Assembly: GCF_024707545.1 (NCBI RefSeq)
Contig: NZ_CP062229.1
Span: forward strand, 5,313,501 to 5,377,500
From: Mesorhizobium onobrychidis
GTDB lineage: Bacteria > Pseudomonadota > Alphaproteobacteria > Rhizobiales > Rhizobiaceae
Reading direction: 5' to 3'
Length of the DNA: 64,000 nt
The notes beneath the pieces are model-generated. The model was given only the letters and a program-made list of their open reading frames with translations, had not been told where the DNA came from and made no database searches. The position numbers and the translations under genes were made by a program. Shown here one piece after another: positions 1,107 through 62,403 of the stretch (within the stretch, counting starts at the first letter, position 1; each line of letters opens with the position of its first letter).

Positions 1107-1149
1107 CTAAAGCGCGTCTCATACGACGCGCTTTAGTTCTTGTTTTTAT
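1107..1149. terminator. Hairpin terminator between convergent genes
   Basis: A perfect 12-bp stem (CTAAAGCGCGTC / GACGCGCTTTAG) with a 6-base loop is followed on the plus strand by TTCTTGTTTTT. It sits between the carboxylase gene and the convergent livK-like gene and fits a Rho-independent terminator for the former. Confidence 0.7.
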
Positions 1150-1196
1150 GCATGTCGTTATCGCAAAACCGCTGCGCACTTTTGCGCGACATGCAT
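1148..1196. repeat. Palindromic intergenic repeat, family A, copy 1
   Basis: Outer arms ATGCATGTCG and CGACATGCAT (10 bp, perfect) enclose inner arms CGCAAAA and TTTTGCG around CCGCTGCGCAC. The same plan recurs at 10568-10610, 26557-26605 and 30926-30970, usually preceded by TTTGTTTT. It ends 7 bases before the livK-like stop codon. Confidence 0.8.
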
Positions 1197-1202
1197 TAGC
1201 CA

Positions 1203-10551: not shown

Positions 10552-10567
10552 GAATCTTTGTTTTCAT

Positions 10568-10610
10568 CATGTCGTTGTGCCAAAACCGCTGCGCGCTTTT
10601 GGGCGACATG
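10568..10610. repeat. Palindromic intergenic repeat, family A, copy 2
   Basis: Outer arms CATGTCG / CGACATG and inner arms CCAAAA / TTTTGG around CCGCTGCGCGC, preceded by TTTGTTTT. It lies 16 bases after one stop codon and 41 before the next start. Confidence 0.8.
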
Positions 10611-10651
10611 CATTACTTGCAAATTGCCGCCGAGCGACGGAATGTGAAAGT

Positions 10652-54985: not shown

Positions 54986-55457
54986 TCAATGTGGGGTGAT
55001 GTATTTTCCGTAGACCCAGCCGGTTACGAAATTGCCGTTCTGTGCCGGATCATGCCAGACTTCGCACCAGCGATAGCGGATCTTCTGTTCCTGCTTCCAG
55101 CGCATGACCCCGAAAATCGGAATCGATTTTCGGAAAGGATCATGCGCAGATTCAAAGGTTCTACAGCGTCCTTTGCGCGTCCAGAGGACGCGCGGCGCTG
55201 TAGTGCGGCTGCTTGGCGATGTCGAGCAGGTTTATGCCGCCGGTGCATTTCCCGGTCATCTGCAAAACGGCACCGTTGGGATAAGCAGCCTGCTTCTGGG
55301 ATGCCCCCGCCGGATACTTGCGCACGTTGAGCGTGTCGCCAAACGGGACGTTGGTCACTTGCCAAGCTGCGAACACGGTTGCATGAGATTGGCCGGTAAG
55401 GACCAAAACTGTCGAAGCGACGGCGAAAGCCGCGGCAGCGTGAAAACGGAATTTCAT
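54986..55457 (-). pseudogene. SH3-domain exported protein, split by a palindromic repeat
   Basis: The N-terminal part (55457 down to 55206) encodes a signal peptide (MKFRFHAAAAFAVASTVLVL) and an SH3-like domain (VPFGDTLNVRKYPA, MTGKCTGGINLLDIAKQP). A family C repeat then interrupts it, giving a premature end ...LDAQRTL after 98 residues. The missing C-terminus is intact beyond the repeat in another frame (55102 to 54986): RWKQEQKIRYRWCEVWHDP, then NGNFVTGWVYGKYITPH and a stop. Deleting 103 bases (55103-55205) joins both parts in frame. The truncated 98-residue form might still be made. Confidence 0.85.
55103..55203. repeat. Palindromic repeat element, family C, copy 1 (inserted in the SH3 gene)
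   Basis: About 101 bp, starting CATGACCCCGAAAATCGG with an internal CGAAAATCGG...CGATTTTCG dyad and ending in the large palindrome CTACAGCGTCC...GGCGCTGTAG. Copies 2 (opposite orientation) and 3 (same orientation) are at 57683-57782 and 62304-62403. Confidence 0.85.
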
Positions 55458-55572: not shown

Positions 55573-57726
55573 ATGACCCGAACCCCAGCATTTCCGACTG
55601 CCAGTTCGCCGCAACCAGAGAAGCGACCGGTCTTCGACCTACATCATGGAGTAACCCGGACGGACGACTATGCCTGGCTGAGAGCCGACAATTGGCAAGA
55701 GATGTTCAGGGATCCGTCCCTGCTCGACAGCCAGATCCGCGCTCATCTCGAGGCCGAGAACACCTATCAGGCGGCGTTGATGGCCGACACCGCCCAGTTG
55801 CGGAAGCAACTTTTCAAGGAGATGAAGGGCCGCATCAAGGAAGACGATTCTTCCGTGCCGATGAAGGATGGGCCGTATGCCTATGGGTCATCTTTCAAGC
55901 TTGGCGGCGAGCAGCCGCGTTATTTCCGCACGCCGCGCGATGGCGGCGACCAGCAGATCCTGCTCGACGGCGACCTCGAGGCCGAAGGCAAGGCCTATTT
56001 TCGCCTCGGTGGCGTCGACCATTCGGCCGATCACGGCAAGCTCCTGTGGGCGTTCGACGACAAGGGCTCCGAATTCTTCACGCTTCGTGTGCGCGATCTT
56101 ACCAGCGGCAAGGAACTGCCGGACAGGATTCCGGACACAGGTGGCGGCGGCGTGTGGGATCCCGGCAACGACGGATTCTTCTACACCCGCCTCGATCCCA
56201 ACCACCGTCCCTCCAAGGTGCTGTTCCATGCCCTTGGCGACAGTCCTGAGAACGACCGGCTGATCTACGAAGAAACCGATCCAGGCTTCTTCATGAATGT
56301 CGGCGGCACACGCTCCAACGAGTGGATCATGGTCGGCATCAACGACCACGAGACCTCGGAATATCGCATCATGAGCGCCAGCGAGCCGTTCGCCGAACCG
56401 AAGCTGGTTTCGCCGCGTGAGACCGGCCTGCAATACGACCTCGAAGAAGGCGGCGATATCTTCTTCATTCTCACCAACGCCGACGGCGCCAAGGATTTCA
56501 AGATCATGACGGCGCCGGCGAGCGACCCGGTGCGCGCCAACTGGCAGGAAATGGTGCCGCACGAAGCGGGCCGGCTGATCCTTTCGGTGATCGGCTTCAA
56601 GGACCATATGGTCAGGCTTGAACGCAAGGAAGGCCTGCCGCGCATCGTCGTGCGTGACCGCAAGAGCGGCGAGGAACACCTTATCTCCTTCGACGAGGAA
56701 GCCTTCTCGCTCGGCCTGTCGGGATCCTATGAATACGACACCGAGATCATGCGCTTTTCCTACTCGTCCATGACAACTCCGGCGCAGGTCTTCGACTATA
56801 ATATGCGGACCCGCGAGCGCGTGCTGCTGAAGACCCAGGAAGTTCCGTCCGGTCACGACCCGGACCATTACGTGACACGCCGGCTGATGGCGCCCGCCGC
56901 CGACGGCGAACTGGTGCCGATCTCGCTCATCCACCATCGCGACACGCCGCTCGACGGCTCAGCGCCTTGCCTGCTTTACGGCTACGGCTCCTACGGCATC
57001 ACGGTCCCGGCCGCCTTCAACACCAATTTGTTTTCGCTGGTCGACCGCGGTTTCGTCTACGCGATTGCCCATATCCGCGGCGGCAAAGACAAGGGCTATG
57101 GCTGGTACGACGACGGCAAGCGGGCGCACAAGATGAACACGTTCACCGATTTCATCGCGGTCGCACACCACCTCGTCGCCGAGCGCTACACGGCCCATGA
57201 CCGCATTGTCGCACAGGGCGGCTCGGCCGGTGGCATGCTGATGGGCGCGATCGCCAACATGGCGCCGGAATGCTTCGGCGGCATCGTCGCCGAGGTTCCG
57301 TTCGTCGACGTACTCACCACCATGCTCGACGCGACCTTGCCGCTGACGCCACCGGAATGGCCTGAATGGGGCAACCCCATCGCTGCGGAGGAAGACTACC
57401 GGACGATCGCCGCCTACTCGCCCTACGACAATATCGCCGCGCTTGACTATCCACCAATCCTGGCGCTTGCCGGCCTCACCGACCCGCGTGTCACCTACTG
57501 GGAGCCGGCCAAATGGGTGGCGCGGCTGCGAGACCGCAAGACCGGCGACAATCCGGTGCTGTTCAAGATCAACATGGACTCCGGTCATGCCGGCGCATCC
57601 GGCCGGTTTTCCAGGCTCGAGGAAATCGCCTTCACCTATGCGTTTGCGCTGAAGGTGGCGGGCAAGGCCGACCTTGCCACCACCACAGCGCCGCCCATCC
57701 TTTTGGACGCGCAAAGGGCGCTGTAG
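55573..57726 (+). CDS. ptrB: Oligopeptidase B (S9 prolyl-oligopeptidase family)
   Basis: 717 residues. N-terminal beta-propeller, C-terminal hydrolase domain with catalytic Ser551 (QGGSAGGML), Asp637 (GLTDPRV) and His672 (SGHAG). It cleaves short peptides after Arg or Lys in the cytoplasm. The ATG follows a short leader. The last 14 or so codons (after DLATTT: APPILLDAQRAL and stop) come from a family C repeat, so the natural C-terminus was replaced or extended. Confidence 0.93.
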   Translation: MTRTPAFPTASSPQPEKRPVFDLHHGVTRTDDYAWLRADNWQEMFRDPSLLDSQIRAHLEAENTYQAALMADTAQLRKQLFKEMKGRIKEDDSSVPMKDGPYAYGSSFKLGGEQPRYFRTPRDGGDQQILLDGDLEAEGKAYFRLGGVDHSADHGKLLWAFDDKGSEFFTLRVRDLTSGKELPDRIPDTGGGGVWDPGNDGFFYTRLDPNHRPSKVLFHALGDSPENDRLIYEETDPGFFMNVGGTRSNEWIMVGINDHETSEYRIMSASEPFAEPKLVSPRETGLQYDLEEGGDIFFILTNADGAKDFKIMTAPASDPVRANWQEMVPHEAGRLILSVIGFKDHMVRLERKEGLPRIVVRDRKSGEEHLISFDEEAFSLGLSGSYEYDTEIMRFSYSSMTTPAQVFDYNMRTRERVLLKTQEVPSGHDPDHYVTRRLMAPAADGELVPISLIHHRDTPLDGSAPCLLYGYGSYGITVPAAFNTNLFSLVDRGFVYAIAHIRGGKDKGYGWYDDGKRAHKMNTFTDFIAVAHHLVAERYTAHDRIVAQGGSAGGMLMGAIANMAPECFGGIVAEVPFVDVLTTMLDATLPLTPPEWPEWGNPIAAEEDYRTIAAYSPYDNIAALDYPPILALAGLTDPRVTYWEPAKWVARLRDRKTGDNPVLFKINMDSGHAGASGRFSRLEEIAFTYAFALKVAGKADLATTTAPPILLDAQRAL

Positions 57727-57782
57727 GAGCTTGATCTTGCGCACGATCCCCAGCGGGAAATCGATTCCGATTTCGGGTCATG
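57683..57782. repeat. Palindromic repeat element, family C, copy 2 (inverted)
   Basis: The reverse complement reads CATGACCCGAAATCGGAATC... and ends in the palindrome near CCACAGCG. Its 5' part is translated as the end of oligopeptidase B. Confidence 0.8.
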
Positions 57783-62301: not shown

Positions 62302-62303
62302 CA

Positions 62304-62403
62304 CATGACCCCAAAAATCGGAATCGATGTTGCAAAGGATCATGCGCAAATTAAAGGTGCTACAGCGTCCTTTACGCATCCAAATGGACGCGCAGCGCTG
62401 TAG
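62304..62403. repeat. Palindromic repeat element, family C, copy 3
   Basis: About 100 bp, CATGACCCCAAAAATCGG... to CAGCGCTGTAG, same orientation as copy 1, three bases after the dehalogenase stop. Some internal bases differ (CGATGTTGCAAAGG). Confidence 0.8.

Follow-up and report, generated by a model that had tools for sequence, protein, structure and literature searches.

The Rhizobium-specific intergenic mosaic elements (RIME) were reportedly described by Osteras, Stanley and Finan in 1995, and RIME1 is about 105 nt long (about 106-109 nt) and consists of two large palindromes. REP elements are non-autonomous palindromic DNA of 20-40 bp that is moved by Y1 (RAYT) transposases. In rhizobial papers, RIMEs are masked as intergenic repeats (PMC2573895, PMC2245857), and they also appear in a further source (PMC3233446). 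Bru-RS1 and Bru-RS2 of Brucella are given as 103 and 106 bp (PMC10800456), and Rickettsia RPE and enterobacterial RU/ERIC are described as small palindromic mobile sequences located inside genes or at their ends (PMC3733652, PMC2759123). Related repeats act as hot spots for IS711, according to PMC2266754, which gives the IS711 target as YTAR with TA said to be duplicated.

We analyzed a stretch of 64,000 nt from Mesorhizobium onobrychidis (contig NZ_CP062229.1, positions 5,313,501 to 5,377,500), hereafter the window, in which a palindromic repeat splits an SH3-like gene. The repeat fits what rhizobial papers mask as RIME, and we call it RIME-like. Comparison across the genus established an insertion with empty sites in relatives, an altered frame, and near-identical copies of the repeat at one base in three non-sister genomes. 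The features of the locus, in window coordinates, are:

55206-55457, minus strand: codons 1-84 of the SH3-like gene (5' half), placed by alignment with intact orthologues
55161-55457, minus strand: present open frame of 98 aa, from the list of open reading frames
55100-55203, minus strand: inserted RIME-like element, 104 nt, CTACAG to ATGCGC, with a net insert of 103 nt against relatives
55161-55203, minus strand: first palindrome, 43 nt, its final three bases being the TAG that closes the upstream frame (sequence, open reading frame and fold)
55100-55147, minus strand: second palindrome, 48 nt, which carries the ATG of the 39-aa frame (sequence, open reading frame and fold)
54986-55099, minus strand: 3' half of the SH3-like gene in the other frame, placed by alignment with intact orthologues
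57685-57782, plus strand: further copy of the repeat, where the neighbouring 717-aa gene ends
62302-62403, minus strand: further copy of the repeat (L055)

The gene starts at 55457 on the minus strand, and its first 84 codons match a protein present in 116 of 146 same-genus genomes. An earlier, sequence-only reading had the repeat separating two gene halves that lie in different frames, and the two open reading frames, 55161-55457 (minus, 98 aa) and 54986-55105 (minus, 39 aa), agree with this arrangement. The upstream frame comprises 84 native residues followed by 14 repeat-coded residues (HYSAARPLDAQRTL) and is stopped by a TAG inside the first hairpin; the downstream frame, whose 39-aa translation is a prediction from the open reading frame, is opened by an ATG within the second palindrome.

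Orthologous loci supplied the empty sites that an insertion into a once-continuous gene predicts. The repeat is absent from all 28 other loci compared (L010-L038 minus L019), so the contrary outcome, in which all relatives carry it, was checked and did not occur. In 27 of these 28 loci the gene halves are joined by exactly one codon (L033 has a small indel there), which bears out the net insert of 103 nt already read from the letters. Both halves are retained in 29 of the 80 named loci around the neighbouring gene, and of these 29 just L083 (Mesorhizobium prunaredense) has the repeat. The exact cut is ambiguous by up to 3 nt: removing 55100-55202 leaves CAC (His), and the 55103-55205 of the sequence-only reading leaves CGC (Arg). 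As the junction codon is variable among relatives (A, V, H, N, and also R in L086 and L121), both cut positions fit. The proposed two-base target duplication was not borne out in exact form, since the bases at the two ends of the element are TA (left) and TG (right). An assembly artefact was also considered and rejected on account of identical junctions in two further genomes.

At a threshold of E <= 0.01, the SH3_3 family of Pfam (PF08239) matched 19 of the 23 intact orthologues, the best at 9.1e-7, and the orthologue of M. temperatum scored 22.7 bits over residues 41-119, below the curated cut-off of 27. The insertion point, after residue 84, lies within these matched residues, and a Pfam search of each gene half alone returned no match at E <= 1. 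The predicted structure of an intact orthologue had a mean pLDDT of 53.9, too poor for judging the fold. Given this weak fit in 19 of 23 orthologues, "SH3-like" is fair as a label, with the fold unproven. The product is probably secreted, from the appearance of its N-terminus. In 13 of the 116 genomes the open frame is shorter than 110 aa (G000, G039, G145, G095, G020, G018, G110, G125, G089, G013, G103, G122, and G031), some of which may be contig ends, and G145 (M. wenxiniae) has a stop codon immediately past the insertion site. On the strength of these short frames, the gene looks dispensable.

Read along the minus strand, the two palindromes (55203-55161 and 55147-55100) are separated by a 13-nt linker, and the DNA fold computed for the element has a free energy of -40.3 kcal/mol, with z = -10.1 relative to 200 shuffled sequences. 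Its first 18 bases have 49 matches in the genome with up to 2 mismatches, 18 of them exact, versus 5 for the reversed control, and a 24-base core has 30 matches versus 0. From 156 first-look candidates, 40 copies were scored in the genome, and the repeats fall into two classes that start with CTACAG or TTAGAG. The repeat also matches 326 plasmid records, among them 243 of Rhizobium and 69 of Sinorhizobium; in 271 records the match spans 80% or more of the query, and identity is 85.7-88.3% among the 25 listed. First-look candidates, which are unconfirmed copies, number about 100-166 in the clade of the window and in some other genomes versus about 20-55 in many genomes, and this unevenness within the genus may reflect a lineage-specific expansion of the repeat. 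Other repeats occur nearby. Namely, a second family, D1 (about 61 nt; window 1138-1198 and 10555-10615), immediately precedes the RIME-like repeat in L039 and L042, with both repeats jointly missing from G073 at L039, and another repeat of about 70 nt, found in many places in G140, was seen there at the right flank of L062 (query 2072-2145). In G096, a different copy of the RIME-like repeat lies just upstream of the same SH3-like gene (L015:1372-1474) and is absent in G073, G142, and G140; by this comparison of sequences, it is a second insertion at the locus.

We compared 40 copies of our genome, 22 of G073, and 1 of G096 with the orthologous places in G140, G145, G096, G142, and G073. This gave 21 places with a gap below 30 nt, from which ten clean empty sites were picked by eye. 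Their junctions read TTGG (the SH3-like gene, in G140), TTGG (L043), CTTG (L045), GTAG (L046), CTAG (L047), CTAG (L058), GTGG (L063), TTAT (L077), CCGG (g73_771319), and CTGG (L015), and eight of the ten follow the pattern NYRG; L043, L045, L047, and L058 each have a single empty relative. Set aside were L051 and g73_313439 (one place, a probable loss in G140), L057 (a large deletion), and, for unclear alignment or polarity, L054, g73_115425, L062, L068, L069, g73_35709, g73_603997, and g73_786856. L042, whose left flank is unalignable, and L039, missing from G073 along with the second repeat, were omitted.

Out of 63 copies, with L071 dropped as a near duplicate of L066, 56 right ends and 45 left ends were counted. 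At the right junction, counted after ATGCG, 52 of the 56 ends have a purine at position 3 (P 5e-12) and 39 have G at position 4 (P 4e-9), with P values that assume an independence the copies do not have, at least five G073 copies being orthologous to our own. From these sites we infer insertion at a CTAG-like pyrimidine-purine core. At L058 a perfect CTAG stands on both sides, the sole perfect repeat of target bases among the ten empty sites, so a duplication of 2-4 bp is conceivable for the repeat family. CTAG occurs 30 times in the window versus 220 predicted by base composition, about a sevenfold depletion, and 3 of the 30 are at stop codons of the 44 coding-like frames.

Such a target bears on where the other copies are found. 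They had been said to lie at gene ends, and this holds in part. Among 62 copies examined with heuristic gene calls and coding-like frames, 15 frames terminate between -60 and +44 of a right end, 6 of them with a stop at exactly -2 whose last base comes from the element, and 3 of 13 left-end genes have a TAG at +1 supplied by the element. Because a CTAG-like target contains TAG, elements can land on stop codons without necessarily abolishing the stop; stop codons on the junction thus partly explain the copies at gene ends. Next to the SH3-like gene, the 717-aa gene (55573-57726), which we take to be peptidase-like, terminates inside the copy at 57685-57782, so its last residues, LDAQRAL, are repeat-coded, and its G073 orthologue ends likewise. 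At two annotated places on Rhizobium plasmids, chosen for a gene overlapping the match, the gene terminates at the right end of the repeat. Base composition proved too crude for sorting the copies, as it marked 4 of our 40 copies as holding the 3' end of a gene and missed the SH3-like insertion itself.

A recent insertion private to the M. onobrychidis genome is not supported. At least 3 of 144 same-genus genomes carry the insertion at this base: our own, M. prunaredense (G039), and G089; six candidates were scored per genome, so further carriers may exist. L019, L083, and G039 all denote M. prunaredense, G039 being identical to L083 across the 3252 nt compared, and G140, G145, and G034 are likewise identical to M. 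temperatum, M. wenxiniae, and M. muleiense over the compared stretch. Any two of the three carrier copies differ at 2 of 104 positions, and other copies are at most 95% identical among those listed. The carriers have the left codon CAC in common; their near relatives have GCT or GTT. The three are not a clade. A maximum-likelihood tree built from about 2.5 kb of flanks groups our genome with G140, which is intact, and G039 with G143 and G034, which have no repeat; with G089 added, our genome, G140, and G089 group together (support 83/99). In both trees the carriers fell on one side of a branch in 0 of 200 bootstrap trees, and the nearest relatives of M. prunaredense and G089 are without the insertion.

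The divergence of the copies argues for movement of the broken allele between species. Across 57 pairs of copies at orthologous sites, not all independent, elements diverge 1.44 times as much as their flanks (200-bp flanks) or 1.50 times (150-bp flanks). By this measure, 9.9 differences are expected between our element and that of M. prunaredense and 2 are seen (P 0.003), or 7.1 expected with the downstream flank alone (P 0.027). Among the 25 vertically shared pairs whose flanks diverge by at least 5%, none is as alike as the carriers. This likeness beyond the flank-based expectation speaks for spread by recombination over a short tract. The case is clearest for M. prunaredense, into which the broken allele was likely transferred. 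The tract so imported would be short, since G039 agrees with its sisters against both other carriers as close as -46 and +48 of the element. No direct trace of a conversion tract was found around the element in G039, which agrees with the carriers against its sisters at four sites, all more than 250 bp away. For G089, the downstream flank is about 1% diverged from ours, and descent predicts 1.65 differences with 2 seen, so plain descent suffices for this pair; transfer and descent are both possible origins of the G089 copy.

The alternative that survives best places one old insertion in the ancestor of a clade of eight genomes. Three of them would have kept it, and the other five would have lost it or had it replaced by an intact allele. 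This history accommodates the position of the carriers on both sides of that clade as well as the number of differences between our element and that of G089. Loss of the repeat also seems to occur: the L051 copy is missing in G140 and present in G073, G096, and G142, and copies are probably lost on occasion in this manner. Yet at such an age our copy and that of M. prunaredense are too alike, with 7.1-10.0 differences expected versus 2, and up to five losses would be needed, each restoring a clean codon. We consider this history unlikely, although it deserves to be kept in view. Transfer of the broken allele between species remains our preferred reading.

As for what moves the element, a Y1 transposase was ruled out in this genome, which has no match to PF01797, the control being positive in 5 of 14 genomes; the family is matched in 24 of 144 genomes of the genus. 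Judged by eye, the left end (CTACAGCGCC) and the reversed right end (GCGCATGACC) do not form the terminal inverted repeats of a DDE-type MITE. The target duplication of such elements has no exact counterpart at the SH3-like site and is perfect only at L058 among the ten empty sites. A transposase of the IS5/IS427 type that works in trans and duplicates TA, as IS711 does, is nevertheless conceivable, as the core resembles the YTAR at which IS711 reportedly duplicates TA (PMC2266754) and this genome holds seven loci of the IS5-type transposase family PF13340. We hold it to be improbable: the element ends are not mutual inverted repeats, TA duplication is inconsistent at the empty sites, none of the seven PF13340 loci contains a repeat match, and the ends of the sole IS pair inspected (L350/L351) are unlike those of the repeat. 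This pair is an IS5-type element of about 850 bp present on both contigs of the genome, with copies 86% identical. Our search for literature on the insertion mechanism of RIME returned none, weak evidence of absence given a coverage that leaves out most subscription papers. A hot spot, at which two or three lineages would each have acquired a near-identical element at the same base, might be suggested by the target preference of the family and by the IS711 hot spots at related repeats (PMC2266754). It is very improbable, because the carriers are 98% alike versus at most 95% to any other listed copy and have in common a CAC codon that near relatives are without.

Short-tract transfer after a single insertion is thus the account we favour, and we judge it reasonably probable as a whole, including the part played by a CTAG-like target in placing copies at gene ends. 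A non-autonomous RIME-like element of two hairpins would have entered a CTGG-like site inside the apparently dispensable SH3-like gene, adding 103 nt with no exact target duplication, shifting the frame, and ending the upstream part with its own TAG. The three carrier copies would trace to this one event, and the broken allele would later have moved between Mesorhizobium species by short-tract homologous recombination, in M. prunaredense on a tract within about -46 to +48 of the element. An enzyme would insert the element at a pyrimidine-purine core resembling CTAG. As CTAG is rare and includes the stop TAG, and insertion may keep a stop, many surviving copies would stand at gene ends, the SH3-like copy being the exception within a reading frame. 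We offer only tentatively, as a possibility that falls short of probable, the broader proposal that rhizobial RIME-like elements are still mobile, are inserted by a trans-acting enzyme at a CTAG-like YR core without exact duplication, pile up at stop codons largely through this target because CTAG is scarce elsewhere, and can carry a broken gene between species on tracts below about 200 bp.

An intragenic insertion with empty sites is a natural experiment that gives the boundaries, net length, and target of a RIME. The CTAG-like target provides a simple and testable explanation for finding such repeats at gene ends. That a single broken allele is shared so patchily suggests that insertions of repeats can depart from the species tree.

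The event itself is of a known kind, small palindromic DNA entering a gene, to which the empty sites, target, and patchy sharing add usefulness. The Rickettsia RPE and enterobacterial RU/ERIC copies are described as in-frame or end-fused (PMC3733652, PMC2759123), whereas here the frame is shifted and ended by the repeat's own stop. REP elements and this element are both non-autonomous and palindromic, but here a 104-nt hairpin pair resides in a genome without a Y1 transposase. Likened by description and not by sequence, the repeat resembles Bru-RS1 and Bru-RS2 in length, palindromic form, and dispersal. Rfam RF02600, which carries the name Brucella sRNA CI27, aligns weakly over the whole element (window 55090-55254; 29.1 bits versus a cut-off of 59.8) and presumably includes a Bru-RS, and given this weak coverage of the whole repeat the RNA family may rest on a dispersed repeat. 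The closest likeness is to RIME, known here by description and not by a consensus sequence. With 104 nt, the element is slightly shorter than the 106-109 nt of RIME1 and has palindromes of 43 and 48 nt, and like RIME it is dispersed and mostly intergenic, with relatives in Rhizobium and Sinorhizobium plasmids, but unlike RIME the present copy splits a gene.
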